Source: Arthrobacter sp. KBS0703 (GTDB taxonomy: Bacteria; Actinomycetota; Actinomycetes; Actinomycetales; Micrococcaceae). Taken from it: a stretch of 64,000 nucleotides of DNA. Location of the stretch: NCBI RefSeq assembly GCF_002008315.2, contig NZ_MVDG02000001.1, forward strand, positions 4,154,001-4,218,000, given 5' to 3'. The position numbers and the translations under genes were made by a program. Position 1 is the first letter of the stretch; every line of letters starts with the position of its first letter. Below, piece after piece: positions 6,519-47,314 of this stretch. A model generated the notes under the pieces. It was not told the origin of the DNA. It did not search any database and saw nothing but the letters and a program-made list of their open reading frames with translations.

Positions 6519-6614
6519 ATGACCAGAATCTTCAACGACCCCGCCGACTTCGCCGATGAAGCGCTCGCTGGCTTCTGCGACCTCCACTCCGGACTGGTGC
6601 GCCAGGTCCCGGAC
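6519..6614 (+). CDS. Dihydroxyacetone-kinase-type gene, cut by adapter
   Basis: Only 32 codons remain (MTRIFNDPADFADEALAGFC and onward to RQVP), ending where the adapter at 6615 begins. The start matches the N-terminus of the DhaK domain of actinobacterial dihydroxyacetone kinase-like proteins, which phosphorylate dihydroxyacetone, erythrulose or related ketoses. The rest of the gene is absent; the sequence after the adapter is unrelated. The loss is an assembly gap, not a natural truncation. As the third gene of the plus-strand arm, it is the likely sugar kinase of the pathway. The identification rests on a short stretch. Confidence 0.6.
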
Positions 6615-6652
6615 CTGTCTCTTATACACATCTAGATGTGTATAAGAGACAG
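6615..6652. other. Nextera mate-pair junction adapter (artefact)
   Basis: A 38-bp perfect palindrome formed by CTGTCTCTTATACACATCT and its reverse complement, the transposase mosaic end used in Nextera mate-pair libraries. It is not bacterial sequence. The flanks are unrelated (start of a kinase gene on the left, the tail of another gene on the right), so this is a false join with missing sequence. Confidence 0.97.
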
Positions 6653-6653
6653 G

Positions 6654-10093: not shown

Positions 10094-10964
10094 TCAGGAC
10101 CGGACGCGGACGTCCTCGTGCTGTGCCAGCGAGACCATGGACCCGGTGTCCAGGACGGCCATGTTCCCGGCGGCGGGCTTCCGCGCCGGCCGCGGAGGCT
10201 GGGCGGACAAGGCAAGCGCGGACCGTGCCGGTGCTTCCTTGGGTCCCGTTTCGCCGGGGGCGGGGGCCTCTGCGTTCGGTTTCGGATTGTTCTGGGCGTC
10301 TTCCTGCACGCCCTCTTGGCGCCGGGATTCTTTGTGCAGCGCCTTTTTATCCAGGGCCGCCGTGTGCAGCGCCTCCGCATTAAGGGCGGACTCCACCAGC
10401 GGAGCAACCTTCACCACGCCGTCGGCAGCCACACCCAGTCCGGGCCGGTCCGGGGCGCTGTCTCTTATACACATCTAGATGTGTATAAGAGACAGCCACC
10501 GCACGGGCATCGGCGGCGGCCACCGCGGCTGCCCAGTCTTTCGACAGGACGGGCGGCACCGGCCGCGCGGCGGTCAGCAGCGGGTGGTGGGCGACGGCGG
10601 TGCGGAGCGCCTCTTTGAGCCCGGCACGGCTCAGGAGCTTCTTCCAGTCGCGCGGAGGGCGCGGTTCCCGCGCCGGCCGGGGGGCCTTCGGCTTTTTTGC
10701 CGGGCGTTCCTCCGCTGCGGGGACCTCGTCGGGGGCGGCGGCGTCGAAAGATTGCGTCCCCACGGGAAGCCGCACCACCTCGATGGTGTCGTTCCCGGGG
10801 AAGCGGCCGAACAGGGCCATCACGATCAGCGCAACCAGGCGTCCCACTCCGGCGATCACCAGCGTCACCATGAACAGGATGAACATGCCGATGAACATGA
10901 CGAACGCCACGCCCACGGTGCCGAAAAAGGTCAGGTTAAGTGCGATCGTTGTCGGATCTTCCAC
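10094..10964 (-). pseudogene. Small membrane protein with basic tail, broken by adapter
   Basis: The N-terminal part (10496-10964, 156 codons) has a hydrophobic stretch of about 40 residues from TFFGTVGVAFVMFIGMFILF to GVGRLVALIVMALF, then a Lys/Pro/Arg-rich cytoplasmic segment. The C-terminal part (10094-10457) is hydrophilic and Ala-rich, ending VSLAQHEDVRVRS. The 38-bp adapter at 10458 separates them. Simply deleting the adapter leaves the frame off by one, so some bases are missing. The N-terminal membrane part resembles the 100-residue protein at 14798-15100. Function unknown. Confidence 0.65.
10458..10495. other. Nextera mate-pair junction adapter (artefact)
   Basis: Same 38-bp palindrome as at 6615. 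Both flanks appear to belong to the same minus-strand membrane-protein gene, so the missing sequence is probably short. Confidence 0.97.
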
Positions 10965-16637: not shown

Positions 16638-16663
16638 GGACGTCCGCGGGCACCTGTTCATCC
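16638..16663 (+). repeat. 26-bp chimeric copy of jetC sequence
   Basis: These 26 bases are identical to 20692-20717 inside jetC (both encode DVRGHLFI). They sit directly left of the adapter at 16664, and the sequence right of it is at 16702. This is the geometry of a circularised mate-pair fragment covering 16702-20717, about 4.0 kb. Confidence 0.85.
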
Positions 16664-16701
16664 CTGTCTCTTATACACATCTAGATGTGTATAAGAGACA
16701 G
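16664..16701. other. Nextera mate-pair junction adapter (artefact)
   Basis: Same 38-bp palindrome as at 6615, here inside jetA. Left flank is a short piece of jetC; right flank is the true jetA 3' end. Confidence 0.97.
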
Positions 16702-16883
16702 GGCCTGGGCGCAGCTTCCGCCGGAGGAGCAGCACATCAACTCGATCCGGGCCCTCCTGTCCCACGCCCTGCACGACGGTGCCCGCTTCGACCGCGCAGC
16801 GGTGGACGCCCTCGACTTCGAACAGATAGACGGAACCACGCGCACGGCGTACCTGCCGGTGGTCACGCTCAAGAAGGATTCCG

Positions 16884-17726: not shown

Positions 17727-20700
17727 CCATCGCAACCATGCTGCCGATGGGCGAGCTCACCAACCCGGGACAGATGCGGCTCGCGCTGGTCCAGGTGGTC
17801 AATTGGGGCACGTTCCATGGCGCCCACACCATGCACGTGGACCGCAACGGCACGCTGCTGACGGGCAACTCGGGCGTCGGCAAGTCCACGCTGTTCGACG
17901 CCATGCTGAGGGTGTTCGATGCCCGGCCGCGCTCCAACGAGGCCGCCGCCCAGCGCGCCGGCGGAGCCGTGGAGGACAAGAGGACCACGTTCACGTACAT
18001 GCGCGGCAAGGTGGGCGACAAGGCCGTGGGCGAAGGCTCGGCCAGTGCCTTCCAGCGCCCGGGCGCCACGTGGTCCGCCGTCGCCCTGACGTTCGACAAC
18101 GCCGCCGGCACCAAGGTGACCGTGTCCGCGCTGTTCGACCTGCCGAAGAACGGCACGGAATCGAGCGTGGGCCGGTACTACGTGATCGACAACAAGCCGC
18201 TGGACCTTCCCGCGATCGAGGACATCGCCGAGAAGCGCTTCACCAAGGCGGCGCTGGAGACGATCTTCCCGGACGCCCAGGTCTTCGACGTCCACAAGGC
18301 GTTCGCCGAGCGGTTCCGCCGCCTCCTGGGCATCAATTCGGACCAGGCACTTCCGCTGCTCCGGGTGATCCAGGCAGGAAAGGGCCTGGGCGGCAGCGTC
18401 AACACCTTCTTCCGTGACCAGGTGCTGGACGCCCCGGCCACGTTGGCCGCGGCGGACGACGTCGTGGAGGAATTCAGCAACCTCATGTCCATCCGGCAGC
18501 GGCTGGAGGACGTCCGCCAGCAGCGGGACCAGCTGGCTCCCGTGCCGGGGCTGAACAAGGAATACGCCCAGGCGCTGCTGGACGCCAACCGGCTCCGCGA
18601 GCTCGCGGGCGAGGAGTTCGAGGCCTACCGGCAGCAGCTTGCCGTCGCGGTGCACGAGAAGACCCTGGCCCGCTTCAAGGCGCTCGCGCAGGCCAAGGCC
18701 AGGGAGCTCAGCGCCGAGCGCGCCGTCCGGGACGGCCTGGCCAAGGAGCTGCGGCAGCTCGAGGCGGACTACAACAACCAGGGCGGCAACGCCATCTCCT
18801 CGATCGAACAGTCGCTCGAAAATGCACGGGTGGGGCTCAAGCTCCGCCAGCAGGTGGAGGAGGCCGCCCGCCAGGCGTTGGCCGAGGCCGGGCTCGAGCT
18901 GGACTGGTCGGCCGACGGCTGGGAGCAGGCCCACGAGCAAGCCGCCGCGCGTTCCGCCGAACTCAAGGACGATTCGGAGGCCCTCAAGGAGCTCCGCTTC
19001 GAGGCCTTCGACGGCCACGCCACGAAGAAGCGGGAGCTCGCCGCGGCGGAGCAGGAGCTCGTGTCGCTGAAGACGCGCAAATCGCTGCTGCCGCCGTCGA
19101 GCATTGAAAACCGCGCCGCCATCGCGGCCGCCACCGGTGTTCCCGAGGAACAGATGCCGTTCGGCGGCGAGCTCATCGACCTCGCGGACGGCCAGGATCA
19201 GTGGCGGCCTGCCGCCGAGCGCGCCCTGCGGAACCTCGCCACCACACTGCTGGTTCCCGGCGCGCACTTCGCCGCCGTCACCAGGTACCTGAACGACCAC
19301 TCCGTCCGCGGCGCCCTGCGCGCCGTGGACGTGTCCAAGCCGCTCGCCGGCGCGGCGCTGGCCGTGGAGGACGTGTCCGACGGCGACCTGCTGACCAAGC
19401 TGGAGATCCTCACCACCGGGCACAACGCCGCCGCGGGGGAATGGATCCGTGAACGCATCGCCCTCGATTTCGCTTATCCGTGTGTGGAAAACCCGGACGA
19501 ACTGGCCGGCCTGGACAAGGGCCTGAGCCTGGGCGGCGTGGTCAAGCGCAACCGGCACACCGTGGAGAAGGACGACCGCTTCACCAGCCGCCAGGACTAC
19601 GTCCTCGGATTCGACAACGCGTCCAAACTGGAACTCGTGGCCGGGCAGGTGGCGGACCTTCAGCAGGAACTCGCCAAGGCCGCCGAGCTGGCCCAAAGCC
19701 GGGAGGAATCCCACCAGGGCATGTCCCGGCAGCTCGAGGCCCTGCGCCGCGTGGCCGACGACCACCGGCCGTGGGAGCAGGTCTCGGCCGCCGTGGCCGC
19801 GGACGAGCTCGCCAGGATCGAGCAGCGGCTCAAGGATGCCCTGGCCGCGCAGGCGGACCTCGAGCCGCTCCGGGCCAACATCGAAGCGGCACGCCAGAAG
19901 CACCAGTCCAGCACCGAGGCGGCGGCTGTGCTGCAGAGCGAATACAAGGCGCTGGACCACCAGCTCACCGCCTCCGATTCGCTGCTGGAAGCCGGCCGGA
20001 CCCGCCTGGGCCAGGCGCCGCCGTCGGACTCCACAGTCACCGCGCTGGAACCGGATTTCACCGGATTCGGCGACGTCACGGAGATGCATGAGCTGGACAA
20101 CCTTGCTGCCCGGGTCAAGACCCAGCTGCTGGGCGAACTCCATGCCGCGGAATCCCGCGGCCAAGCCACGTCCGAGCGGCTGACCCGGATTTTCGAAGGC
20201 TTCGTGCGTGAATGGGGCACCGCCATCTCCGCCGACCACGGCACGTCCATCGGGGCGGCCGGCGAATTCGAGGCCCGCTACCACGCCATTGTCAGCGACG
20301 GGCTGCCCGCGCAGGAGGCCGAATTCCGGCAGTTCTTCAACCAGCGCACGCACGAATCCTTCAGCACGCTGCTGCACCTGCTGGACGAGGAGCGCCGCTC
20401 CATCACCAGCCGCATCCTGCCGCTGAACGGCATCCTGTCCGAGGTCAACTTCCACGAGGGCAGCTTCCTGGAACTGGACATCAAACAGACCCTGCCGGCC
20501 ACCGCCAAGCAGTTCAAGGACGCCATCCAGAACGCGCTGAAGACCCGGCACACGCGGCACGGCAAGCCCGCCGCCGGCGCGGATACCGACGACGACGCCG
20601 AGCTCACCAACCGCTACAAGTCCCTGGAAACGCTCGTGAAGCGCCTGGGTTCGCAGGCGCCGGAGGACAGACGCTGGCGCGCCGAGGTGCTGGACGTCCG

Positions 20701-21187
20701 CGGGCACCTGTTCATCCAGTGCAAGGAGCACCGCGAGGTGGAGGCTCCGGCGAAGCAGAAGGCCGCCAAGGCCGGCACCAAGACCGAAGTCTTCATGCAC
20801 GCCGACACCGGATCGATGTCCGGCGGTGAGCGGCAGCGGTTCACCGCGTTCATCATGGCCGCGGCGCTGAGCTACCAGCTGGGCATCGCCGAACAGGGCT
20901 TCACCACCTACGGCACCGTCATGATGGATGAGGCGTTCGTGCTGGCCTCCGAGGAATTCGCCGGCGCCGGCATCAAGGCGCTGCACGAATTCGGCTTCCA
21001 GCTGCTCCTCGCCGCCCCGGAGAACGTGATCGACCTGTCGCGGCACCTTGGCTCGGTCACCGAGATCCTCCGGGACAAGCGCACCAACCGCTCCGGCGTG
21101 CTGACCGCCCCGGTGATCACGCCGAAGCCCGGCTCCGAGGGACAGTGGCGGTCCGAAGCCAACCCCGTGGACATCGTGCTCCGCTAG
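17723..21187 (+). CDS. jetC: JetC/MksB SMC-like ATPase
   Basis: An 1154-residue SMC-type ATPase. Walker A is GNSGVGKST at residues 48-56. About 950 residues of Ala/Glu/Leu-rich coiled coil follow, with a central hinge-like region near [20 protein letters not shown]. The C-terminal half-ATPase has the signature [10 protein letters not shown] near residue 1031 and Walker [14 protein letters not shown] near 1065. In Wadjet and MksBEF this subunit extrudes DNA loops using ATP. Length and order (A-B-C) match Wadjet. It begins with GTG overlapping the jetB stop. No jetD (topoisomerase VI-like nuclease subunit) follows; the next gene is an unrelated lipoprotein. Confidence 0.95.
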
Positions 21188-21448
21188 CCGGACAACAGGT
21201 GGCTGTGCGGCCGGCACCTGTACAGCCAGCCCGTGTTGGCCGGATCACCCGTCGTGATCTTTCCGCGCCGTAAAATAACAAATCGATGGATTTATTGACG
21301 GATCCCTAGTGAGCGCCTGCTTCTGCGTGCGATTGTGTTGAGCACCAACACTTCGCCTCACGCTCCACCAGGGTCATCAACACTCCCACGCGGCGGGCCA
21401 AAGCTACCCTTTCCGGGCTTGACGGCGTCCTTCATGAAAGGCACCATC

Positions 21449-22102
21449 ATGCGTCCTGCACATCACGGCACCTTTGTCGCAGCCCTCGCCGCCGCCGCCA
21501 TCAGCCTGGGCGGCTGCGCCGCCGGCGCCCCGTCCGCGTCCACCACGGCGAGCCCGACGACGACAGCCGCCCAGCCGTCGTCGTCCGCTACCGCTCCGGC
21601 CGCGCTGGCGACGTACACGTTCCCGGACGGGCGCCTGTCTTTCAAGTACCCGGCTGACTGGAAGGTGGAGCTGTTCACCGGGGACGTGAAGCCCTCCACC
21701 TCCAGGACCGCCACTGTCTTCGACGCCAGCGGCACCAAGCAGGTCACGGTCTACTCGGGGCTGGTGGCCGACGGCGTGACCCATCCGGTCACCCGGACCG
21801 TGTTCGAGTCCGCACCCGTCGCGGGCCTCCAGCAGCAGCAGGCCCCCGCCGCGCACTACTCCTTCTACGTAGACCGGATGGAGAACAATCCCACGTACCG
21901 GATGCACCTGACAGCCGGGGCGCCGGCGGCCGGGAAGGGCATGGCGCTCGACGGGATCGTCCGCATCGGGAAGGAAGTCCTCGTGGCGGACGCGCAGTTC
22001 ATCGAGAAGCCCTTCGCCAGCGACGCCGCAGCCAAAGCCTGGCTGGCCAGCGACGAGGGGCAGTCCATCAAGGCGCTGCTGTTGAGCGTCACCTACCGCT
22101 GA
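21449..22102 (+). CDS. Putative lipoprotein
   Basis: A 217-residue protein with a signal peptide, MRPAHHGTFVAALAAAAISL, ending in a lipobox (SLGGC) for lipid attachment. A Ser/Thr/Ala-rich linker of about 35 residues follows, then a globular domain beginning YTFPDGRLSFKYPADWKVEL, a pattern common in secreted actinobacterial proteins. ATG at 21449 has AAAGG about 7 bp upstream. An upstream in-frame ATG at 21434 is less likely. No enzyme motif is visible. It is anchored on the outer face of the membrane; the function is unknown. Confidence 0.8.
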   Translation: MRPAHHGTFVAALAAAAISLGGCAAGAPSASTTASPTTTAAQPSSSATAPAALATYTFPDGRLSFKYPADWKVELFTGDVKPSTSRTATVFDASGTKQVTVYSGLVADGVTHPVTRTVFESAPVAGLQQQQAPAAHYSFYVDRMENNPTYRMHLTAGAPAAGKGMALDGIVRIGKEVLVADAQFIEKPFASDAAAKAWLASDEGQSIKALLLSVTYR

Positions 22103-22117
22103 CTTGAAGCGGGGTGG

Positions 22118-22144
22118 GCCGGCCGAACCAGCGTTTCGGCCGGC
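22118..22144. terminator. Bidirectional hairpin between convergent genes
   Basis: GCCGGCCGAA (22118-22127) pairs with TTCGGCCGGC (22135-22144) over a 7-nt loop. It lies between the lipoprotein and the convergent tetR gene, so it could end both transcripts. There is no T-tract. Confidence 0.55.
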
Positions 22145-22166
22145 TCAACCCGCGCCTTCGGCCAGA

Positions 22167-22718
22167 TCAATCCGCGGTTTCATCCGCGCACGCGTCGATC
22201 TGGGCCTGGACGATCGCCCCGTAGTGCGCCACGAGGTCGTCAAAGTCCCAGCCGTCGAACAGGCCGAGGGTCCGTACGGTCTCGCCGAAGCCGGTCATCA
22301 GGGCCGTCACCGTGGAGGCGAAACGTCGCTCAGGCGTGGCGTCCCCGATCAGCCGGGCCATGGCTCCCAGGTAGCGTTCGCGCAGTTCTGTCCGCGCCGC
22401 GTCGGGATCGGGGGAGTCGTGGACGCTGAACGGAATCATCGCCCACGGTTCCTGCATGCCGCGCTCCCGGCGCATCAGCACGCGGAACACGAGGGCGCTG
22501 CCGAGTTCCGACGGCGGGACGTCCAGTTCCGTAAGGAGCGACTCGTCCGGCTGCACGGCGGCGAACAGTTTGTCCTTGGAGATGAAGTGCTTCATGACCA
22601 GGGCGGCCGAGACGCCGGCTTCGGCGGCGATGTCGCGGACCGTGACCGCGCGGTAGCCCCGATCTCCGAACAGGCGCCGGGCGGCGCTGAGGATGGCCTC
22701 CTGGCTCGGGCCGCTCAT
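22167..22718 (-). CDS. TetR-family regulator
   Basis: A 183-residue protein with an N-terminal TetR helix-turn-helix: AILSAARRLFGDRGYRAVTV, RDIAAEAGVSAALVMKHFIS, then KDKLFAAV. The C-terminal part is a helical ligand-binding domain similar to the TetR_C family found with efflux pumps. Its ATG at 22718 overlaps the stop of the upstream MFS gene by four bases, so exporter and regulator share an operon. It probably represses that operon through the two GTGAAC palindromes at 24727-24766. The inducer is unknown. Confidence 0.92.
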   Translation of the reverse strand: MSGPSQEAILSAARRLFGDRGYRAVTVRDIAAEAGVSAALVMKHFISKDKLFAAVQPDESLLTELDVPPSELGSALVFRVLMRRERGMQEPWAMIPFSVHDSPDPDAARTELRERYLGAMARLIGDATPERRFASTVTALMTGFGETVRTLGLFDGWDFDDLVAHYGAIVQAQIDACADETAD

Positions 22719-24688
22719 GCTCTCACCGGCTCGCCGGCGTTCTGTGGCTCCCGAAGGGGAGCCCTGAGATCCACGGTCACGGAGCGGTTGTCGACGGCAA
22801 GCTTCCGCGCCATGGCCTGATGATTCACAGGATGAAGCATAGTCACTATGTAGCGGCCGGCTGCCGGCAGCGGAAGCCTGTAGACGCCGTCGTCGTCAGT
22901 CGTTGTGGTGGCCACGTGCTCGCCGCTGGCCTGCAGCAGCGACACCACGGCGCGGGCAACCGGCTCGGCCCCGAGGGTGGCGGTCCCGCTGAGTTCGAGC
23001 CGATCGTGCAGCAGGAAGTTCTGCTGGAGGGTGCGGCCGTCGAAGTCGAAGACCTCGGCCATGGGCGCCCAGCCGGCCGCGTTGGCCACCATGAGGTACT
23101 TGCCGGCGCCGGGCAGCGCCACCGAATAGTTGCCCTCGGTGTCCACCCGGCTCCAGTCGATGGGCTCGCCGGTGGTCTGGAGGACGGTCACGACGGCGGG
23201 AGTCAGCGGGCGGTGGTCGGCGGCCAGGACGCGGCCCTGAACGACGAGCTCGGTAGCCGCGACGGCGGGCACGGCCGGGCGGTGCGCGGCGGCCCGCGGG
23301 ATGGCGATGGCGGCCAGCACCGAGGCCGCCGAGGCCATCGCCGCCATCCAGAAGACGTCCTGGAACGCCGCGAAGGACGGCGCCCGGACCGGTCCCAGGT
23401 TCATGGTCACGGAGGTGAGGACGGCGGCGACGGCGGCGCTCGACGTCGAGGTGCCGATCGAGCGGACCAGGCTGTTCAGCCCGTTGGCGGACGCGGTTTC
23501 AGTGATGGGGACGGCGCCCATGATCAGGGTGGGCATGGCCGCGTATGCGATGGCCGTGCCCACGCTCACCACCGTGGAGCCGATGACCACCACGGTGATG
23601 GAGTCGTGGAAGAAGACGCGGCCCACGTAGCCGGCAATCATGACGCACGCGCCGGTCATCAGCGCCGTCTTGCCGCCGAACCGCCGGATGATCCCGCCTG
23701 ACACAGGCGCGAACACCACCATGGCCAGTCCGGACGGCACCATGCACAGGCCGGCAGTGATGACGTTCAGCTGGAACCCGTAGCCGGTGGCTGTGGGGAG
23801 CTGGAGCTGCTGGGTGGTCAGGAGCATGTTGGCGAACATCGCGAAGCCGATCAGCAGCGACGCGATGTTGGTCATGAGCACCGGGCGGCGGGCCGAAGTC
23901 CGCAGGTCCACCATGGGCTGGCCAACCTTGAGCTCGTACGGCACCCAGGCTGCCAGCAGGACTGCGGCGGCAAGGAACAGCAGGAGCACCGGTTCGGAGT
24001 CCCAGCCCCACGAGCCGCCCTTGGAAATGGCCAGCAGCAGGGACCCCAGCGCGGCGGACAGCACCAAGGCGCCCGCATAGTCGAAGCGGCCCGGGGTGCG
24101 GACCTTCGATTCCGGGACCACCAGCACCACAGCAAGGAGCAGGAGCGACCCCGCGCCGGCGGCAACCCAGAAGATTGATTCCCAGCCGAGGCCCTCGTAC
24201 AGCACGCCGGCAAGGGGGAGACCCAGGGCGCTGCCGATGCCCAGGGTGGCGCTCATGAGCGCCACTGCCGAGCCCATCTTCTCCTTGGGCAGTTCATCTC
24301 GCATGATGCTGATGCCCACTGGGATCAGGGCCGACGAGAAGCCTTGGAGGGCGCGGCCGATGATGAGCCACAGGAACGTTCCGCCCACGGCAGCCATGAT
24401 GGAGCCCGCCACCATGATGGCCAGGCACGCCACCATCATCCTGCGCTTGCCGTACATGTCGGCGCTGCGGGACACAATCGGGGTCGCCACGGCGCTGGAG
24501 AGCAGCGTGGCCGTCACGAGCCATGACGCGTCGTCCGCCGTGACGTCCAGAATCCGGGGAAAGTCCGGGAGCAGCGGCACCACAAGGGTCTGCATGAGCG
24601 CCACCACCGTGCCGCTCAGCGCGAGAACGGCCGTGATGGCGGACGGGGAGAGACGGCGGGATGGTCTCGTGGCAGCGGAATCTGTCAT
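22715..24688 (-). CDS. MFS drug exporter with C-terminal carboxypeptidase-regulatory-like domains
   Basis: A 657-residue protein. Residues about 15-460 form a 14-helix DHA2-type MFS exporter: LVVPLLPDFPRIL, the motif GKRRMMVACL, and GRALQGFSSALIPVGISIMR in helices 4-5. The last roughly 190 residues are not membrane sequence. They show two beta-sandwich repeats of the carboxypeptidase regulatory-like type: VVQGRVLAADHRPLTPAVVT to VDTEGNYSVALPGAGKYLMV, then ELSGTATLGAEPVARAVVSL to DDGVYRLPLPAAGRYIVTML. The usual family length is about 480. ATG at 24688 follows GGAGGA-type sequence weakly. It is co-transcribed with tetR. The tail may sit outside the cell and bind a partner or polymer; that is inference. 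Confidence 0.9.
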   Translation of the reverse strand: MTDSAATRPSRRLSPSAITAVLALSGTVVALMQTLVVPLLPDFPRILDVTADDASWLVTATLLSSAVATPIVSRSADMYGKRRMMVACLAIMVAGSIMAAVGGTFLWLIIGRALQGFSSALIPVGISIMRDELPKEKMGSAVALMSATLGIGSALGLPLAGVLYEGLGWESIFWVAAGAGSLLLLAVVLVVPESKVRTPGRFDYAGALVLSAALGSLLLAISKGGSWGWDSEPVLLLFLAAAVLLAAWVPYELKVGQPMVDLRTSARRPVLMTNIASLLIGFAMFANMLLTTQQLQLPTATGYGFQLNVITAGLCMVPSGLAMVVFAPVSGGIIRRFGGKTALMTGACVMIAGYVGRVFFHDSITVVVIGSTVVSVGTAIAYAAMPTLIMGAVPITETASANGLNSLVRSIGTSTSSAAVAAVLTSVTMNLGPVRAPSFAAFQDVFWMAAMASAASVLAAIAIPRAAAHRPAVPAVAATELVVQGRVLAADHRPLTPAVVTVLQTTGEPIDWSRVDTEGNYSVALPGAGKYLMVANAAGWAPMAEVFDFDGRTLQQNFLLHDRLELSGTATLGAEPVARAVVSLLQASGEHVATTTTDDDGVYRLPLPAAGRYIVTMLHPVNHQAMARKLAVDNRSVTVDLRAPLREPQNAGEPVRA

Positions 24689-24726
24689 GGGAGGACTTTC
24701 GGGGTACGGAGGGGCGCGGAGGCATG

Positions 24727-24766
24727 GTGAACGCGCGTTTACTCCTTCGAGTGAACCATTGTTCAC
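24727..24766. promoter_or_regulatory. Two TetR-type operators
   Basis: GTGAAC-GCGC-GTTTAC (24727-24742) and GTGAAC-CATT-GTTCAC (24751-24766) are two inverted repeats of the same form, with starts 24 bp apart. They lie 39-78 bp upstream of the MFS-tetR operon start. Paired palindromes of this kind are typical TetR sites; binding is inferred. Confidence 0.65.
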
Positions 24767-24842
24767 CCCGGAAAGGCAAAGGGATTTGGGCATGCTTTGC
24801 ATCACTCGGCAATTACGTGACGCAAACCTTTCGTAATCTATT

Positions 24843-24861
24843 GAAGGATAGGCTAGCCTTA
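24843..24861 (+). promoter_or_regulatory. Iron box (DtxR/IdeR-type)
   Basis: GAAGGATAGGCTAGCCTTA matches the IdeR/DtxR consensus TWAGGTWAGSCTWACCTWA at 16 of 19 positions, 33 bp before the GTG of the siderophore-binding protein. It predicts repression of the uptake operon when iron is plentiful. Confidence 0.75.
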
Positions 24862-24893
24862 CTTGGGTTTGCTTCAATGACCTAAGGAGTTCC

Positions 24894-26006
24894 GTGACTT
24901 CCCCCCTCTTCCCCGGCCCGAACGCCGGCCTGGGCGCCGCCGGCGCCACCCGCCGGACGCTGCTCAAGACCGCCGGCAAGGCGACCGCAGTCCTGGCCGC
25001 CGCGGCGCTCTCGCTGACAGCCTGCTCTACCGGACCAGTCTCTTCGGCCTCCGACGCCGGCTCGACCGCGTCAGCAAGTGCCCAGTTCCCCGTCACCATC
25101 AAGCACGTCTTTGGCGAAACCACCATCAAGGCCCAGCCCAAGCGCGTGGTTACGGTCTCCTGGGTCAACGACGACGTTGCCATCGCCCTGGGCGTGGTTC
25201 CGGTGGGTGTGCCGAAGAACGAGTGGGGCGGCAACGACAAGGGCTCCACCCCGTGGAAGGACGCCGCGCTGGAGAAGCTCGGCGCCGGCTTCGGCTCGGC
25301 GAAGGCGCCGGCCCAGTTCTCCGAGGCGGACGGCATCAACTTCACCGAAATCGCCAAGCTCAACCCGGACGTCATCCTGGGCGCCTACTCGGGGCTCACG
25401 GCTGAGGATTACAAGAAACTCAGCGAAATTGCCCCCGTGGTGGCGCACCCGGAGCTGGCGTACGGCACGTCCTGGCAGGATTCCACGAGCATCATTGGCA
25501 AGGCCCTGGGCAAGGAAGCCGAGGCCGCGAAGCTGATCTCCGACACCGAAGCCACCATCAAGGACGAGGTCGCCAAGTACCCGCAGATCGAGGGCAAGTC
25601 CTACATTTACGGCAACCTCGAGCCCGCCAAGGGTGACGGCGTCAACGTCTACACGGCTAATGACAACCGGCCGAAGTTCCTCACCGCGATCGGCATGAAG
25701 CTGGCTCCCGTGGTGGAGGAGAAGTCGAAGGGCTCCAAGGAGTTCTTTGTCCCGTGGTCCGCCGAGAAGGCCAACGAGCTTGATTCGGACATCTTCGTGA
25801 CCTGGGTTCCCGATTCCAAGACCGCCGAGTCGATCAAGAGCGATCCGCTGCTGAGCCAGATTCCGGCGATCAAGGGCGGCGCCCTGGTGGCTGACTCGGA
25901 TAACACGCTGACCCTGTCCATTTCCGCTTCCTCGCCGCTGAGCCTGCCGTGGTCACTGGACACGTTCCTGCCGCAGCTGGCCAAGGCCGCCGACGCGGTC
26001 CGGTAG
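24894..26006 (+). CDS. Iron-siderophore ABC transporter, substrate-binding lipoprotein
   Basis: A 370-residue protein of the FecB/FepB family. The N-terminus has a twin-arginine signal (TRRTLLKTAGKATAVLAAAA) and lipobox LTAC, so it is exported folded by Tat and lipid-anchored. The mature part begins PVTIKHVFGETTIKAQPKRV, with VSWVNDDVAIALGVVPVGVP and LNPDVILGAYSGLTAEDYKK, all typical of ferric-siderophore binding proteins. GTG start with AAGGAG 6 bp upstream. The iron box sits just upstream. It is first in the operon, followed by two permeases, an ATPase and a siderophore-interacting protein. Confidence 0.94.
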   Translation: MTSPLFPGPNAGLGAAGATRRTLLKTAGKATAVLAAAALSLTACSTGPVSSASDAGSTASASAQFPVTIKHVFGETTIKAQPKRVVTVSWVNDDVAIALGVVPVGVPKNEWGGNDKGSTPWKDAALEKLGAGFGSAKAPAQFSEADGINFTEIAKLNPDVILGAYSGLTAEDYKKLSEIAPVVAHPELAYGTSWQDSTSIIGKALGKEAEAAKLISDTEATIKDEVAKYPQIEGKSYIYGNLEPAKGDGVNVYTANDNRPKFLTAIGMKLAPVVEEKSKGSKEFFVPWSAEKANELDSDIFVTWVPDSKTAESIKSDPLLSQIPAIKGGALVADSDNTLTLSISASSPLSLPWSLDTFLPQLAKAADAVR

Positions 26007-26016
26007 GCAGCACTTC

Positions 26017-27120
26017 ATGACAAACGGCACGACGACGGCGGCCGATTCGCGCGAACTGGCAGCTAACGACGCCAAATCCGGGTCCAAAGGGCATTACCTG
26101 CCAGTTCGCGCTCCCCCGGGGAGGGCTCGTGGCCCGCAGGCCGCGTGGCTGCTGGCCGCCGTCGTCGTGCTTGCTGCCGCCTGCGCCGCCTCGCTGGCCG
26201 TGGGTGCCCGCGGGCTGTCTCCGGACACCGTGTGGCGGGCGCTGACGCACTTCGATCCCGCCGACGGCGACCACGCGGTGGTGCACGCACGCATTCCGCG
26301 CACCATCCTCGGGCTGCTCGCTGGCGGTGCGCTGGGCCTCGCCGGGGCAGCCATGCAGGGCGTGGCCCGCAACCCCCTGGCCGATCCCGGCATCATCGGC
26401 GTCAACGCGGGCGCCGCGCTGGCCGTGGTCACGGGCATCTACGTCTTCGGCGTCTCCTCGCTGACCGGGTATATCTGGTTCGCGTTCCTGGGCGCTGCGG
26501 GCGCCGCCGTCGTGGTTTATCTCATTGCCTCCATGGGCAGGGACGGCGCGACGCCGGTCAAGCTCGCCCTCGCGGGCGCCGCCCTCAGCGCGGGCCTGTA
26601 CTCATTGATGAACGTCATCCTGGTCTCCAGCCAGGACACCTTGGACCGCTTCCGTTTCTGGCAGGTGGGCGGAATCGCGGGGCGCGACTGGTCCGTGGTG
26701 CTGCCCGGCGTGCCGTTCCTCCTGGCCGGCGCACTGATCGTGCTCTCGGCCGGGCGGACCCTCAACGGCCTTGCCCTCGGAGACGACATTGCCCGCGGAC
26801 TGGGCCAGCGCGTCGGCCTCGCCCGCGGGGTGACAGCGCTGGGCATCGTGCTGCTGTGCGGCTCCGCCACCGCTCTCGCCGGGCCGATCGGGTTCGTGGG
26901 GCTGGTTGTCCCGCACGCCGTCCGCGCCCTGACCGGCCCGGACTACCGCTGGATCCTGCCGTTTTCCCTGGTGCTCGCTCCCGCGCTGCTGCTGCTCTCC
27001 GATGTGGTGGGCCGCGTTGTGCTGCTTCCCGGCGAGGTGCCGGCGGGCATCATGACCGCCCTCGTAGGTGCTCCCTTTTTCGTCTGGCTGGTCCGCCGCG
27101 GCAAGAGGGCAGGCCTGTGA
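26017..27120 (+). CDS. FecCD-type siderophore permease 1
   Basis: A 367-residue permease with about nine or ten helices. FecCD-family motifs: RIPRTILGLLAGGALGLAGA, MQGVARNPLADPGIIGVNAG and the C-terminal GPIGFVGLVVPHAVRALTGP, the loop that contacts the ATPase. About 45 residues before the first helix are unusual: the stretch RELAANDA...GHYLPVRAP is encoded by a DNA palindrome (26049-26111) and is shared with the next permease. Typical FecCD proteins have about 330 residues, so the extra length is this insert. The stop overlaps permease 2 as GTGA. Confidence 0.93.
   Translation: MTNGTTTAADSRELAANDAKSGSKGHYLPVRAPPGRARGPQAAWLLAAVVVLAAACAASLAVGARGLSPDTVWRALTHFDPADGDHAVVHARIPRTILGLLAGGALGLAGAAMQGVARNPLADPGIIGVNAGAALAVVTGIYVFGVSSLTGYIWFAFLGAAGAAVVVYLIASMGRDGATPVKLALAGAALSAGLYSLMNVILVSSQDTLDRFRFWQVGGIAGRDWSVVLPGVPFLLAGALIVLSAGRTLNGLALGDDIARGLGQRVGLARGVTALGIVLLCGSATALAGPIGFVGLVVPHAVRALTGPDYRWILPFSLVLAPALLLLSDVVGRVVLLPGEVPAGIMTALVGAPFFVWLVRRGKRAGL
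26049..26111. repeat. In-frame palindromic element, copy A
   Basis: GCGCGAACTGGCAG (26049-26062) and CTGCCAGTTCGCGC (26098-26111) form a perfect 14-bp inverted repeat inside the permease coding sequence. GGGCATTACCTGCC next to the right arm matches copy B at 27179-27241. The element keeps the frame and adds peptide before the first membrane helix. Confidence 0.85.
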
Positions 27121-28280
27121 ACAAGTCAGACCTCGCCGCCGTCGGGCGCGAACTGGGCGAAAACGCACCCGGCACCGTGCGCGAATCGGCAGATAATGCC
27201 CTCAAAACCGCGAACACAGGGCATTATCTGCCGGTTCGCGCTCCGCGGCTGCACAGGCTGCCGGACGCGGTGCTGAACCGGACAGCGGCCCTGGCGCTCG
27301 CCGTCGTGCTCCTCTTCGCAGCGGGCGTCCTGCTGGGCAGCTACACGGTGACCATCCCGGACTTCTTCAGGGTCCTCTCCGCCCACCTCACCGGCGGCGA
27401 GAAGATCCCGGGCGCCAGCTTCATCGTGATGGAGGCCAAGCTGCCCCGCGCCGTGATCGGCGCCATGATCGGCGTGGCCTTCGGACTCTCCGGCGGGCTG
27501 TTCCAGACCATGCTGCGCAATCCGCTGGCCAGCCCGGACGTGGTCGGCATCAGCTACGGGGCCAGCGCCGGCGCTGTCACCGCCATCGTCATTTTCGGCG
27601 CCTCCGGGGCCGCTGTTTCCGGGGCGGCGCTGGGCGGCGCGCTAGCGGTGGCCGCGCTGATTTACGGGATCTCCCGCAGCGGCTCCCTCGGCGACGGCAG
27701 CGCGGCCGGTAACCGGCTCATCCTGGCGGGCGTCGGCATCGCCGCGGCGCTCCACGCCGTGGTCAACTTCCTTCTGACACGGGCGGATATCCGCACGGCG
27801 GCGGATGTCCTCGTCTGGCTCAACGGCTCGCTCAATTCGGCCAGCTGGGACCGCGCCGGCGTGCTCGCCCTGGCGCTGCTGGTCCTCATTCCGGCCGCGG
27901 CACTCCTGGCCGGCCCGCTGCGCATCCTCGAACTCGGGGACGACGCCGCCGCAGGGCTGGGAATCCGTGTACGGCGGACCCGGCTGGGTGTGGTGATGAC
28001 CGCCGTCGCACTTGCCGCGGTGGCGACGGCGGCAGCCGGGCCGGTGGCGTTCGTCGCCTTCCTGGCCGGACCCATCGCGCGCCGCTTCACCGGGAAGGCC
28101 AGCCTCCCGGCGTCGGCCTTTGTCGGTGCCTCGATCGTCCTGGCGGCAGACTACTTTGCCGCCAACATCGCCCCGCTGCTGCTGGACGGCACCGTGCTGC
28201 CGGTGGGTGTGATCACCGGTGCGCTGGGCGCCCCGTTCCTGCTGTGGCTGCTGGTCACTTCCAACCGAAAGGATGCCTGA
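27117..28280 (+). CDS. FecCD-type siderophore permease 2
   Basis: A 387-residue permease, the second half of the membrane channel. Motifs: KLPRAVIGAMIGVAFGLSGG, FQTMLRNPLASPDVVGISYG and GPVAFVAFLAGPIARRFTGK. The GTG at 27117 overlaps the previous stop by four bases. As in permease 1, the N-terminus is extended by about 40 residues, ending GHYLPVRAP, encoded by a near-perfect DNA palindrome. This makes it longer than the usual 330-350. Both permeases are needed with the ATPase to move ferric siderophore inward. Confidence 0.93.
   Translation: MNKSDLAAVGRELGENAPGTVRESADNALKTANTGHYLPVRAPRLHRLPDAVLNRTAALALAVVLLFAAGVLLGSYTVTIPDFFRVLSAHLTGGEKIPGASFIVMEAKLPRAVIGAMIGVAFGLSGGLFQTMLRNPLASPDVVGISYGASAGAVTAIVIFGASGAAVSGAALGGALAVAALIYGISRSGSLGDGSAAGNRLILAGVGIAAALHAVVNFLLTRADIRTAADVLVWLNGSLNSASWDRAGVLALALLVLIPAAALLAGPLRILELGDDAAAGLGIRVRRTRLGVVMTAVALAAVATAAAGPVAFVAFLAGPIARRFTGKASLPASAFVGASIVLAADYFAANIAPLLLDGTVLPVGVITGALGAPFLLWLLVTSNRKDA
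27179..27241. repeat. In-frame palindromic element, copy B
   Basis: The 24-bp arms at 27179-27202 and 27218-27241 are reverse complements at 23 of 24 bases, around a 15-nt spacer. The core is GGCAGATAATGCCCT and its complement. An extra GCGCGAACTGG lies at 27146. The encoded peptide ends GHYLPVRAP, identical to copy A. Confidence 0.88.
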
Positions 28281-28281
28281 C

Positions 28282-29109
28282 ATGGCTGTTCTCAAAGCCC
28301 GGGACCTCACGCTGCAGTACGATCAACGTCGCGTCGTGGAGAACCTCACCGCCGAGATTCCGGAGGGCCGCGTGACGATGATCGTCGGGGCCAACGCCTG
28401 CGGGAAGTCCACGCTGCTGCGCGGGCTGTCGCGGCTGCTCAAGCCGGCCGGCGGCACGGTCACCCTCGACGGCAAGGACATCCATTCCCGCCCCGCGCGC
28501 GAGCTGGCACGCACGCTCGGCCTGCTTCCGCAGCACCCCGCCGCACCGGACGGAATTACGGTCCGCGATCTGGTGGGCCGCGGCCGGTACCCGCACCAGG
28601 GCTTCTTCCGCGGCTGGTCGGAGAAGGACGACGCCGCGGTGCAGCGCGCGCTGGAGGCCACCGAAACGCTGGACCTCGCCGGGCGGAACGTCGACGAACT
28701 CTCAGGCGGGCAGCGCCAGCGCGTGTGGATTGCCATGGCCCTCGCCCAGGAAACGGAGGTGCTGCTGCTCGATGAGCCCACCACGTACCTGGACCTTGCC
28801 CACCAGGTGGAAGTGCTGGACCTGGTCACCGACCTGAACCGTCAGCGCGGCACCACGGTGGCGATGGTGCTGCATGACCTGAACCTCGCGGCGCGGTACG
28901 CGGACCATGTCATCGCGCTGGAGGGCGGTCGGATCGTCGCCGAGGGCGCTTCGGCCGCCGTGATCACCGAGGACTTGGTGCGCGACGTGTTCGGACTGGA
29001 ATGCCGGGTGCTGCCGGACCCCGTCTCCGGCACGCCGCTGATCATTCCGCTCGGGAGGCATCACGCAGACCCAAAAGCCCCGACCTCAATCCTGGAGATG
29101 GCCTCATGA
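28282..29109 (+). CDS. Siderophore ABC transporter ATPase (FecE/FepC-type)
   Basis: A 275-residue ABC ATPase. Walker A is GANACGKST, the Q-loop is in LGLLPQHP, the signature is LSGGQRQRVW, and Walker B is VLLLDEPTTYLDLAHQ, followed by the H-loop in VLHDLNLAARYADHV. The YLDLAHQVEVL sequence is typical of iron-siderophore and vitamin B12 ATPases. AAAGGA lies about 11 bp before the ATG. It follows permease 2 directly and overlaps the next gene as ATGA. Confidence 0.95.
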   Translation: MAVLKARDLTLQYDQRRVVENLTAEIPEGRVTMIVGANACGKSTLLRGLSRLLKPAGGTVTLDGKDIHSRPARELARTLGLLPQHPAAPDGITVRDLVGRGRYPHQGFFRGWSEKDDAAVQRALEATETLDLAGRNVDELSGGQRQRVWIAMALAQETEVLLLDEPTTYLDLAHQVEVLDLVTDLNRQRGTTVAMVLHDLNLAARYADHVIALEGGRIVAEGASAAVITEDLVRDVFGLECRVLPDPVSGTPLIIPLGRHHADPKAPTSILEMAS

Positions 29110-30212
29110 GCACAGCAAAGAACAGCCCTGCCCGCTCGCGGCTGACAGCCGTCCCCGGAAGCTCCGCCCGGGCAGTCGCCGAGAGGCACCCGGTCTCCAC
29201 GGAGCCCATGACGCTCGCGTTCGGCGTCACGGTGTCCGCCGTGGAGGAACTGAGCCCTAACTTCCGGCGCGTGACGTTCGGCGGCTACGCGCTCCGCGAC
29301 TTCGGCGTGCACGGGGACACGCTGGACCTGCGGGTCAAACTGATGATCCCCTCATTGGCGCCGGACGGCAGCAGGCTCCCGCTGCCCAGTTTCCGGATGG
29401 AGCAAAGCGGCTGGTTCCAGGAGTGGCTGGCCATGGATCCGGCCACGCGCGGCTCTATGCGCACCTACACTGTCCGGCAGGCTCGGCTCGACGCCGTCTA
29501 TCCGGAGATCGACGTCGACTTCGTGATGCACTTTGACCCGGACGGAAACGGCGGTCCCGCCGCGAACTGGGCACTCAGCGCCAAACCGGGAGACGCCCTG
29601 ACGCTGATCGGCCCGAACAACCGCGCGGCGCACTGCGTCACGGCCGAAACTTACTCCGGCATCGAGTGGCGGCCCGGCCTGGCGCAGCGCGTGCTCCTGG
29701 CCGGCGACGAGACGGCCGTTCCCGCCATCAGCGCCATCCTGGAAAACTTGCCCGAGTACATGACCGGCCACGTTTTCCTGGAGGTGCCCGAAGCAGGCGA
29801 CTTCCTTGACCTCCGCACGGCCGCCGACGTCGAAATAACCTGGCTCGCCCGCGGCGCCGCGAGAGGCCGCTCCCGGCCGCACGGGGAGCTCCTCCAGGCC
29901 GCGGTCCGCAAGGCCGTCTCCGTCCCGGGCGGGGTGGCCATCAAGGCTGCCGGCCCTGCCGGGCCTGAACCGGACGACGTCGACGTGGACCGGGACATCC
30001 TGTGGGAAACGCCGGCCCGCATGGATACGGCCGCGATCAGTGCCACCAAGAATCCGGACAAGCCCGCCGGGGCCATGCCGTTCTATGCGTGGATCGCTGG
30101 CGAGGCCGCCGTCATCAAGGACATGCGGCGCTACCTGGTCCGCGACGTCGGGATCGACCGGAAGCAGGTGGCCTTCATGGGGTACTGGCGGCAGGGGAAG
30201 GCTGAGCTCTAG
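29106..30212 (+). CDS. Siderophore-interacting FAD reductase (SIP family)
   Basis: A 368-residue protein of the ViuB/SIP family, which reduces ferric siderophores in the cytoplasm to release iron. The FAD-binding barrel shows RTYTVRQARLDAVYPEIDVD (RxYT motif) and FVMHFDPDGNGGPAANWALS. The SIP domain shows LLAGDETAVPAISAILENLP and, at the C-terminus, FYAWIAGEAAVIKDMRRYLV with GYWRQGKAEL. About 90 residues near 260-320 (RPHGELLQAAVRKA...) form a loop seen in actinobacterial members. It is the last gene of the iron-box operon, coupled to the ATPase by ATGA. Confidence 0.93.
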   Translation: MSTAKNSPARSRLTAVPGSSARAVAERHPVSTEPMTLAFGVTVSAVEELSPNFRRVTFGGYALRDFGVHGDTLDLRVKLMIPSLAPDGSRLPLPSFRMEQSGWFQEWLAMDPATRGSMRTYTVRQARLDAVYPEIDVDFVMHFDPDGNGGPAANWALSAKPGDALTLIGPNNRAAHCVTAETYSGIEWRPGLAQRVLLAGDETAVPAISAILENLPEYMTGHVFLEVPEAGDFLDLRTAADVEITWLARGAARGRSRPHGELLQAAVRKAVSVPGGVAIKAAGPAGPEPDDVDVDRDILWETPARMDTAAISATKNPDKPAGAMPFYAWIAGEAAVIKDMRRYLVRDVGIDRKQVAFMGYWRQGKAEL

Positions 30213-30481
30213 GCTTTCTGCGCCGCTGGCGGCGACGCCGCACACTACGGGTGAGGGGCGGCCGTAAGGCGGCCATCCCGCGTGCTCGGTCGCTTGCCCC
30301 GCCGTCCCCCTGACCTCGCAAGCTCGGCCAGGGAACCCCGACGGCGGGCCTCTCCCTTAGACGCACGCTTCCGGATGGCCACCTCACGGCCTCTCTTTTT
30401 CTGGACGGTCTCGCCGATCCTGTCGCTGGCCGTTAACTCAGCCGTTCCCTGGCGCTCGCTTTGCTTGATTAGGGTGGCCGG

Positions 30482-31306
30482 GTGGGTGTGTCTCCTTTGC
30501 TGCCGGACCGGGGTGGGCGGCGTGTGTTCGTTGCTCTGGGGGATTCCTTTACCGAGGGCGTGGGGGACCGGAGCTCCCGGCTGCCGAACGGGGTGCGCGG
30601 ATGGGCCGACCGGGTCGCGGAGAAGCTGGCCAAGGCGGAGCCCGGCTGGGAGTACGCCAACCTGGCCATCCGGAGTAAGCGGCTGCGCCACATCGTCGAC
30701 GAACAGCTCGAACCGGCGCTCGCCATGAAGCCCACGCTCATCACTTTGTACGCTGGCGGAAACGACATCCTGGACTTCGGAACGGACATCAATGTCCTCA
30801 TGGCCCAGTACGAGGCCCTCGTCGCCAGGTTGGCTGCGACCGGCGCCACGCTGGTTCTGTTCACTGGTTTCGACGTCAAAGTGTCCGCCGTGCTGGAGCC
30901 TTTGAAGAAGCGGAACGCCGTGTACAACCAGCGGGTGCGCGACCTTGCGGCCAAATACGGGGCCGTCCTGGTGGACTACTGGTGCTTTGATGCCTTCCAC
31001 GACCGCCGGATGTGGGACACGGACCGGCTGCACATGTCCAAGGCAGGTCACAAATACCTTGCGGGGCAGGTCCTGGACCACCTCGGCGTGCCGCACAAGA
31101 TCACCCTCAAGGAGTGGGAGCCGCCGGCCAAGGTGACTCTCCGCGACTGGGAGCGAAGGCAGCGGCGCTGGGTGAACGACTGGGTGGTCCCGCTCTTCGG
31201 CAGGAAGCTCCGCGGCGTCACGCTGGGAGACAACCTCAGCCCGCGCTGGCCCAGGCCGGTGAAAGTTCCGCGCAAAGGCGGCCTGAAGAAGCTGATGGAC
31301 CGGTAG
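30482..31306 (+). CDS. SGNH/GDSL-type hydrolase, copy 1
   Basis: A 274-residue serine hydrolase of the SGNH family. Block I GDSFTEGVGD has the nucleophile Ser, block III YAGGNDIL has the oxyanion Asn, and block V DTDRLHMSKAG has the catalytic Asp and His. No signal peptide is seen, so it is probably cytoplasmic. GTG start. It resembles the protein at 36523-37284 throughout (LPNGVRGWADRVAEKL, YANLAIRSKRLR), so the two are paralogues. The C-terminus is extended and basic (RKLRGVTLGDNLSPRW). The acyl ester substrate is unknown. The 270 bp upstream contain no convincing gene. Confidence 0.88.
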   Translation: MGVSPLLPDRGGRRVFVALGDSFTEGVGDRSSRLPNGVRGWADRVAEKLAKAEPGWEYANLAIRSKRLRHIVDEQLEPALAMKPTLITLYAGGNDILDFGTDINVLMAQYEALVARLAATGATLVLFTGFDVKVSAVLEPLKKRNAVYNQRVRDLAAKYGAVLVDYWCFDAFHDRRMWDTDRLHMSKAGHKYLAGQVLDHLGVPHKITLKEWEPPAKVTLRDWERRQRRWVNDWVVPLFGRKLRGVTLGDNLSPRWPRPVKVPRKGGLKKLMDR

Positions 31307-31352
31307 GGCTCCTTCCAATTTGTGGCTTGAATAGTGCCACTGTAAACAACTG

Positions 31353-31382
31353 TTGACTTGTGTGCAACGTCACAGCTAGTGT
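31353..31382 (+). promoter_or_regulatory. Possible promoter of polyamine ABC operon
   Basis: TTGACT (31353-31358), 18-bp spacer, TAGTGT (31377-31382), about 190 bp before the binding-protein gene. The preceding CTGTAAACAACTG resembles the operator sequence before gntR, but only in part. Confidence 0.4.
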
Positions 31383-31573
31383 TGCGGCACTGACAATCCG
31401 TCAATCATCAAGCTTCAAGTCCGCTCAGCGTTGCGGGTACCGTTCGAGGGCGTGAACCGCCGTCGCCGGCAACCCGACGTAACAGCCGGATCCCTGCCCC
31501 TGCTCCCTCATCCACGCTCACCTTCTTCCCGCGTGCGCCGAGGGGAGCCACCGCCACGAGAGGCATCACCGCC

Positions 31574-32668
31574 ATGACTGACAGCAATTCCCTCCATTTC
31601 GACCGCCGGAAGCTCCTGAAGGCCGCGGCGCTGACGCCGTTCGCCGGCTTGGCCCTGTCCGGCTGTGGCTCAAAGCCCGCCGAAAGTGCGGCAGCCAACA
31701 AGACCGTGACGGTCACGTCCTATGGCGGCTCCTACAACGACCAGTTGACGCAGACAATCCTGGATCCCTTCTCCAAGAAGACGGGCATCCAGCCCACGCT
31801 GCTGGCCAACACCAGCCTCGCGGCGCTCAAGGCCCAGGTGCAGTCCGGCGACGTGCAGTGGGACCTCGTGGAAATCACGGCACCGGAGTACGAGACGGCC
31901 GTCGCCGAGGGCCTGCTGGAAAAGTTCGATTACGACATCATCAGCGACAAGGGCCTCCCCGGCTACGCCAAGGCCGAGTACGGCATCAAGTACCTCAGCT
32001 TTCTGTTTGTCATGGCGTGGGACCAGAAGGTCATTCCGGACGCGCAAGCGCCAAAGGACTGGGCCCAGTTCTTTGACCAGGACAAGTACAACACCAAGCG
32101 TTCCGTTTACAACCAGCTCTCCGACAGCTCGGTCCTGGAAGCCGCGCTGCTGGCAGACGGGGTCCCGTTCGACAAGATCTACCCCCTCGACGTGGACCGC
32201 GCCCTTCGCGTCCTTGGACACCACCCGGGCAAGGACCGGTTGCTTTACCACGCCGCAAACCAGGAGCCGATCCAGCAGCTCACGTCCGGCGAGGTCTCGC
32301 TCTCGACAAGCTTCAACAACCGGATCAACGCCGCCCGCACTGACGGCGCCAAGCTGAACTTCTCGCCTGAAAACGCGGTCCTGGCCGGAGACTACTTTGT
32401 GGTGCCAAAGGGGGCCAAGAACAAGGAAGCGGCATTCAAGCTCATGAACTTCATGTCCAACGACGCCGAGGCCGGTGCCGCGTTCGACAAGGTCACCAAC
32501 CTGACACTGGCCAACACGCCGGCTCTGTCCAAGCTGCCGAAGGAAATCGCGGACACGCTGCCGACGAGCCCGCGGCTGGCCGACAAGATCCTGGTGCGGG
32601 ACGACAAGTGGTGGTCTGAGAACCTGAAGAAGACCGAGCAGCAGTTCAAGCTGTGGCAGGCAAGCTGA
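31574..32668 (+). CDS. Polyamine-type ABC transporter, substrate-binding lipoprotein
   Basis: A 364-residue PotD/PotF-like protein. It has a twin-arginine signal (DRRKLLKAAALTPFAGLALS) with lipobox LSGC. The mature part starts VTVTSYGGSYNDQLTQTILD and has YLSFLFVMAWDQKVIPDAQA and WAQFFDQDKYNTKRSVYNQL, as in spermidine/putrescine-family and related amine/opine binding proteins. It is followed by two permeases and an ATPase of the same family with 1-14 bp spacing or overlaps. The ligand may be a polyamine, but the family also takes other cationic or aminated compounds. Confidence 0.9.
   Translation: MTDSNSLHFDRRKLLKAAALTPFAGLALSGCGSKPAESAAANKTVTVTSYGGSYNDQLTQTILDPFSKKTGIQPTLLANTSLAALKAQVQSGDVQWDLVEITAPEYETAVAEGLLEKFDYDIISDKGLPGYAKAEYGIKYLSFLFVMAWDQKVIPDAQAPKDWAQFFDQDKYNTKRSVYNQLSDSSVLEAALLADGVPFDKIYPLDVDRALRVLGHHPGKDRLLYHAANQEPIQQLTSGEVSLSTSFNNRINAARTDGAKLNFSPENAVLAGDYFVVPKGAKNKEAAFKLMNFMSNDAEAGAAFDKVTNLTLANTPALSKLPKEIADTLPTSPRLADKILVRDDKWWSENLKKTEQQFKLWQAS

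Positions 32669-42101: not shown

Positions 42102-47314
<5,213 letters not shown>

Follow-up and report, generated by a model that had tools for sequence, protein, structure and literature searches.

Intrinsic terminators of high-GC Gram-positive bacteria are stem-loops located beyond the stop codon, frequently where two genes converge, and REP-RAYT systems have an associated Y1 transposase (RAYT, TnpA_REP) in the genome. REPs are defined as short, dispersed, extragenic palindromes, and Arthrobacter livingstonensis is named among the genomes with predicted REPs (PMC12306157); dispersed palindromes in this genus have therefore already been counted earlier. For the Rickettsia palindromic elements (RPE), of about 150 bp, 44 occurrences in genes unrelated to one another are reported from R. 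conorii (PMC10969869), and Wolbachia counterparts of RPE are named in another report (PMC2996958). Of 26 protective 3' hairpins of E. coli, which lack U-tracts, 17 are embedded in the coding sequence of the downstream gene; such embedded hairpins are found at a mean of 107 +/- 56 nt into the gene and their wobble positions are conserved (PMC5927463). The same paper gives the binding-protein gene as the stabilised one in malEFG and in four further operons for ABC transport (PMC5927463).

The stretch of DNA analysed here (the window) comprises 64,000 nucleotides of Arthrobacter sp. KBS0703, whose 4.86-Mb genome holds a predicted siderophore-uptake gene cluster. Domain assignments place a binding protein, two FecCD permeases and an ATPase in a packed cluster at 24894-29109 (Table 1). 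The best plasmid match to the operon was a record of Arthrobacter sp. StoSoilB13, with 79% identity across 85% of the query, and an Rfam search of positions 20000-32000 gave no match at any family's gathering score.

Table 1. Genes and palindromic elements of the predicted siderophore-uptake cluster, in window positions.
Feature	Position	Strand	Remarks
Binding protein, Peripla_BP_2	24894..26006	+	upstream gene; stop 41 nt before copy A
Permease A, FecCD, FepD-like	26017..27120	+	domain assignment
Palindrome copy A, 65 nt	26048..26112		in frame, permease A N-terminal tail; codes RELAANDAKSGSKGHYLPVRA
Permease B, FecCD, FepG-like	27117..28280	+	GTG start; overlaps permease A stop
Likely remnant of older type-1 left arm	27146..27170	+	codes RELGENAP; upstream of copy B
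Palindrome copy B, 65 nt	27178..27242		in frame, permease B N-terminal tail; codes RESADNALKTANTGHYLPVRA
ABC transporter ATPase	28282..29109	+	same cluster

The first-pass annotation had described a palindrome inserted in frame in each FecCD permease gene, and this was borne out. In copy A the 14-bp arms (26049-26062 and 26098-26111) are perfect complements and, when extended, give 17 matches in 18 nt, and those of copy B (27179-27202 and 27218-27241) give 23 matches in 24 nt. Folded as RNA, both go beyond chance: copy B reaches -52.1 kcal/mol (z -7.6), which none of 200 shuffles equals, and copy A -34.9 kcal/mol (z -2.7), which one of 200 shuffles equals. The two copies are 79% identical when 66-nt stretches are compared, share a common reading frame and encode peptides which both end in GHYLPVRAP. 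The accompanying estimate that the elements lengthen each protein by about 40 residues was too high, as each is 65 nt long, or about 21 codons.

The palindromic repeat suspected on first inspection proved to be a dispersed family. A 14-nt core gave six exact matches in the genome, three of them in A and B, and none for the reversed control; with two mismatches allowed there were 33 matches vs nine for the control. The outer 14-mer alone, with three mismatches allowed, gave 24 matches in the window, a number which 7 of 100 shuffles reach and which is not significant. Pattern searches found more genomic copies whose layout is exactly that of A and B, and 11 copies could be aligned without gaps over 65 columns. 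In these, the 12 two-sided cells and the covariation score were equalled by none of 500 shuffles; the two-sided pairs (99 of 500 shuffles as high) and the pair types (216 of 500) failed the same comparison. A covariance model built from the 11 copies matched at least 21 places in the own genome at E<0.01, model sequences included, a lower bound in that 150 of 2531 first-look candidates were scored; against model R1, of which both are members, copies A and B scored E 7.7e-13 and 2.0e-16, respectively. Among 59 genomes, matches were found in 30, namely 29 of the 37 from the genus (own included) and one of the 22 others; a single genome gave between 0 and 62 rows when each strand is listed separately, again as lower bounds from 89 scored candidates per genome. 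Copies A and B are members of a REP-like dispersed family of about 65-nt palindromes. No such family in Arthrobacter was named in the titles and abstract openings of the part of the literature matches that these cover.

The distribution of the family was examined in 102 distinct copies outside the operon, which are the best-scoring matches and not a random sample. Convergent junctions held 49 of them, tandem junctions 48 and divergent junctions four, the last copy having a gene on one side; the other junctions at the same loci were 21 convergent, 111 tandem and 31 divergent (chi-square p 1.8e-10). For the 97 stop-facing copies the median distance to the nearest stop was 15 nt past it, and 93 of these overlap the stop or begin no more than 50 nt past it. 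Such dispersed palindromes just past stops, in many copies per genome and patchily distributed across species, are like REPs, and these 102 copies have the REP feature of short, dispersed, extragenic palindromes at gene ends. REPs are rare in coding regions; here none of the 102 copies was called inside a gene (the calls being those of our own codon-usage caller, not annotation), yet the two permease genes in 13 species carry copies. Unlike REP-RAYT elements, they are ~65 nt long with near-perfect arms, include in-frame coding copies, and belong to several families which share sites. Membership of a REP-RAYT system fails on the Y1 transposase, and a RAYT origin is not supported: a search for PF01797 which was positive in 5-6 of 14 control genomes gave no match in the own genome, and none in 100 of the 101 genomes of the genus (own included).

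The earlier suggestion that the repeat tolerates coding sites in general, as the Rickettsia palindromic elements do, was not upheld by a count of coding against gene-end copies. A search for the coded peptide in 101 genus genomes gave matches in 19, and of the 44 rows examined (two operon places being counted twice) 16 lay in the operon, all in the permease frames, whilst none of the 28 rows outside it was called inside a gene. The caller itself placed eight of the 16 operon rows inside a gene and gave four of the other eight a start past the hairpin; these eight were assigned by frame and adjoining sequence, the row of G036 having also been misplaced in another calling round. As the caller can miss N-terminal insertions, the non-operon copies were re-tested. 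Among 42 facing gene starts within 150 nt there were four (L201, L213, L223 and L229) at which an open frame runs across the element from a start ahead of it, and their scores are strongly non-coding (-23 to -77). Four operon rows put through the same re-test scored -2 to -12, and in each of them the frame was open. Confirmed in-frame copies are therefore limited to the two permeases of this one operon, in 13 species (G000, G002, G016, G020, G030, G036, G081, G085, G104, G109, G112, G118 and G120), and the others are intergenic. The likeness to RPE and their Wolbachia counterparts thus lies in the presence of in-frame palindromes in protein-coding genes, and in insertion sites compatible with fold and function, the coded residues preceding the structure-aligned region; insertion into many unrelated protein genes, the other feature of RPE, was not found.

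Orthologues of permease A were present in 83 of 101 genus genomes, and N-terminal tails were read in 82 orthologues. Of the 82 tails at each site, 21 in A and 16 in B contain a significant palindrome, and control stretches of the same genes gave palindromes in 0/82, 0/82, 2/82 and 0/30. The other 61 A tails and 66 B tails are without one, so the palindrome cannot be essential. By eye, the palindromes of the A tails were assigned to type 1 (GCGCGAACTGGCAG..., nine tails), type 2 (GCGCGAACGKACACTTGGGGCCC..., eight) and type 3 (three), with one short unrelated hairpin in G070; those of the B tails were assigned to type 1 (nine), type 2 (one), type 4 (...CTATCACTTCCGG..., two), type 6 (three) and one other. 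Many further B tails resemble, by eye, decayed type 4 or type 6 copies. Type 4 is also dispersed, with matches in six of seven genomes searched, own included, and none for the reversed control.

With tails labelled by eye, those of permease A with a type-1 element have a median length of 40 residues (36-52), and those without an element one of 36.5 (26-49, n=50); permease A is thus hardly lengthened by its element, since element-less A tails are nearly as long. In permease B the corresponding medians are 43 (21-51) and 6.5 (2-51, n=14), the shortest B tails being of 2-7 residues. The residues coded by the element precede the structure-aligned region and lie in a tail of free length, which suggests that the N-terminal tail of both permeases is dispensable and varies freely, so that in-frame copies would be tolerated.

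The probable left-arm remnant upstream of copy B agrees with the type-1 left arm at 20 of 25 nt, the same remnant occurs in G081 and G085, and G036 has a type-2 half arm at a like position, where its full type-1 copy adjoins the partial type-2 one. At the A site, G118 (type 1) and G064/G116 (type 2) have permease A bodies which are 93% identical and flanks which are near-identical, and the exchange is confined between the common ends GCGCGAAC and GTTCGCG. The first-pass annotation had named, as evidence against its reading, a GHYLPVRAP segment conserved as protein in permeases without the DNA palindrome, and by this check the orthologues do not refute it: the peptide follows the palindrome, and other palindromes give different peptides. 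A protein-level origin of GHYLPVRAP was rejected, as other species carry different peptides at the same place. By eye, G071, G084 and G101 retain a similar peptide with a decayed palindrome.

At two orthologous convergent junctions outside the operon, the place of the palindrome is kept whilst its sequence changes. At the junction of the own-genome copy C1:3691145 a strong palindrome was present in 28 of 30 genomes, and at that of C1:3327633 in 27 of 29, one genome being without a flank; for each junction the loci were the best 30 of 101 genomes. Among background junctions, three of the 12 convergent, 12 of the 64 tandem and three of the 23 divergent ones were positive in this palindrome test. 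These occupancies should not be taken as an unbiased estimate, because both junctions were picked for having an own-genome copy. Each of the two junctions holds about five palindrome sequence families by eye, of which types 1 and 2 share ends. Still, no other result points as strongly to some activity of the hairpin at gene ends as an occupancy which stays almost constant whilst the sequence changes.

The pairing of the arms in the coding copies was assessed after exclusion of G085 and G104, which have a longer loop, of G067 and G101 from A3, and of G030 and G101 from A2. Of the cells in the 11 B-site rows 94.6% were paired, seven of 22 pairs had changed on both sides, and none of 500 shuffles was as high in paired cells, two-sided pairs or covariation score. 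At the A site (16 rows) no shuffle in 500 was as high for the 37 two-sided cells or the covariation score; the two-sided pairs and the pair types failed, 88 and 323 of 500 shuffles, respectively, being as high, in an alignment which mixes two families. Templated correction of the arms or replacement by other genomic copies, and not selection, could be the source of this covariation. In the four outer codons per arm of the type-1 A copies, fourfold differences were 0/55, 0/7 and 0/21, where the gene bodies in the same comparisons gave 29%, 39% and 43%, the pairwise comparisons not being independent of each other. The B copies showed a weaker effect than type-1 A, with 16% in the arms vs 48% in the gene bodies. 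In type-2 A copies 12 of 31 differed in the arms vs 31% in the bodies, with the placement of the arms partly off, and a second count found one of five fourfold sites variable. In-frame stops are frequent in the intergenic copies: 27 of 81 are open in the coding frame when one strand is read, 20 of 81 when the opposite strand is read, and 35 of 81 when either strand counts. For the type-1 copies, these counts speak for upkeep at the level of DNA or RNA, though gene conversion or templated correction could have an equal effect.

Copies A and B are similar in position and depth to the embedded 3' hairpins of E. coli, in that they are stable, lie ~100 nt into the next gene and occur at the binding-protein/permease boundary of an ABC operon. 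The upstream stop lies 41 nt ahead of copy A and 57 nt ahead of copy B, a greater distance than in most family copies, and their stems end 96 nt into permease A and 126 nt into permease B. The conservation of wobble positions is a further likeness in the type-1 A copies, though it is weaker in B and was not seen in type 2. Unlike the E. coli hairpins, these belong to dispersed repeat families which differ between species at one place. As the genes of the operon are packed or overlap, the usual gene-end position of a hairpin would fall inside the next reading frame. Copies A and B would then be RNA hairpins which shield the 3' end of the upstream message, that of the binding protein and then that of permease A, from decay, and the binding protein is predicted to be in excess over both permeases. 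The first-pass annotation had already raised an mRNA hairpin which may set the subunit ratio, and such a hairpin at a gene boundary is the mechanism that we favour. It is on the basis of the E. coli embedded hairpins at similar depth that A and B are taken as likely 3' protectors of these two messages; for the whole proposal, in which in-frame gene-end palindromes protect the upstream message and the binding protein exceeds the permeases, we consider the chances to be about even. A wider and more tentative proposal, which we would put well short of even chances, is that the genus has a common stock of hairpin cassettes which can stand in for one another, whereby gene-end sites would stay occupied as a RAYT-independent process swaps the families, and swaps in the operon would rewrite the transporter N-termini and keep the hairpin that sets the subunit ratio. 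Such cassette swaps would at times be bounded by short shared ends.

The alternative which survives best is that the palindromes are selfish or neutral: a mobile repeat would persist where it is harmless, past stops and in dispensable permease tails, without any RNA function, and its arms would be kept matched by templated repair or repeated re-insertion. This would fit well with tails which vary freely and can be nearly absent, with the patchy occupancy in the operon, and with the at least 16 (A) and at least 23 (B) changes of type label on an 82-orthologue tree with weak support for 35 of its 79 inner branches; the half arm beside a full copy in the B tail of G036 also looks as if copies had arrived in succession. 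However, neutral insertion does not predict that both gene-end junctions should be so consistently occupied despite their differing families, the tolerance shown by just these two genes is left without account, and no Y1 transposase was found in 100 of 101 genomes. We regard this explanation as possible, with the balance tilted against it.

It is doubtful that the hairpins are transcription terminators, acting in both directions between convergent genes and partially inside the operon, such that fewer transcripts reach the permeases. Stable stem-loops past stops, with an excess at convergent junctions, are in keeping with the intrinsic terminators of high-GC Gram-positive bacteria, but the palindromes differ from these in forming repeat families and not unique hairpins, in having no clear U-tract and in having two copies in translated sequence. 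The 12 nt after the stem of intergenic copies contain 23% T vs a background of 17%, and six or more T are found in 12 of 146 tails; the canonical intrinsic terminator was set aside as a simple answer for want of a clear U-tract. Moreover, strong termination inside two genes which are translated would be expected to close down the operon, and translation should suppress it. A site acting at the DNA level at gene ends, be it for protein binding, recombination or cruciform formation, is unlikely; the near-perfect symmetry and the ends shared by types 1 and 2, which bound the swap between close relatives, would suit such a site, but families with other ends occupy the same junctions too. A reading in which upkeep acts on the coded peptide (R-E-x...GHYLPVRA), for example as a permease docking segment, is very improbable, for although one reading frame is used across the 31 listed coding type-1 and type-2 copies and the ends RE... 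and ...VRA recur, most residues are altered by swaps (RELADNA..GHYLPVR vs RERTLGA..GPQVYVR, or PVDLSLPVAKTGSKRPKLIAQ in B), the peptide is wholly absent from some tails, and alignments to solved FecCD structures start past it, at residue 40 or later in permease A and 48 or later in permease B.

The protective-hairpin proposal, together with the results on which it draws, sets the place of a hairpin apart from its sequence: where gene ends were examined, the former is kept over the genus whilst the latter is replaced. The two coding sites, with their repeated replacement between related species, provide a natural experiment, and the findings bear on a long-standing question about REPs, namely whether such repeats are selfish DNA or have a working role within mRNA. 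They also indicate how protein sequence at free termini can come from a repeat family which does not invade proteins in general.

The window carries four copies of a 38-nt palindrome, which we take to be the Nextera mate-pair junction adapter and which are probably sequencing adapter that was not trimmed before assembly. Any unusual join or interrupted gene close to one of these copies should be treated with suspicion. None of the four lies inside the siderophore-uptake operon. Upstream of the binding-protein gene of this operon is a putative site, AGGATAGGCTAGCCTTACTT, that resembles the DtxR/IdeR iron box consensus. The 41.6-44.6 kb stretch recurs as direct repeats 10.6 kb downstream (about 52.2-55.1 kb) and, as 16S and 23S rRNA genes are present, this single window probably holds two rRNA operons.

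Coordinates of features in the window and in genus genome G032
Feature	Sequence	Position
38-nt palindrome	window	6614-6653
38-nt palindrome	window	10457-10496
38-nt palindrome	window	16662-16703
38-nt palindrome	window	51093-51130
Iron-box-like site	window	24845-24864
16S rRNA gene	window	42103-43628
23S rRNA gene	window	from 44182
rRNA stretch	window	42103-46500
Y1 transposase domain	G032, C169	14061-14423
Y1 transposase domain	G032, C38	8682-9044

Among the 101 genus genomes, Y1 transposase domains were found in G032 only. The orthologous gene-end junctions of two copies from the window's genome (L308-L337 and L338-L367) revealed additional gene-end palindrome families, for example CCCAAGTAGGTAGCGCCAAGTGTCGTTTTGA, CAACGCGGGGTCACTTAGCGCC, ACGCCCGCCCACTTTCC and CGAGGTGACAGTTAAGGCCCATGTTC. 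Some gene-end copies of the palindrome, namely L117 in the window's own genome and L181, L188 and L207 in G004, G030 and G016, respectively, overlap the last 19 nt of a called gene, so that at these four loci the C-terminal residues, together with the stop codon, would be encoded by the palindrome itself.
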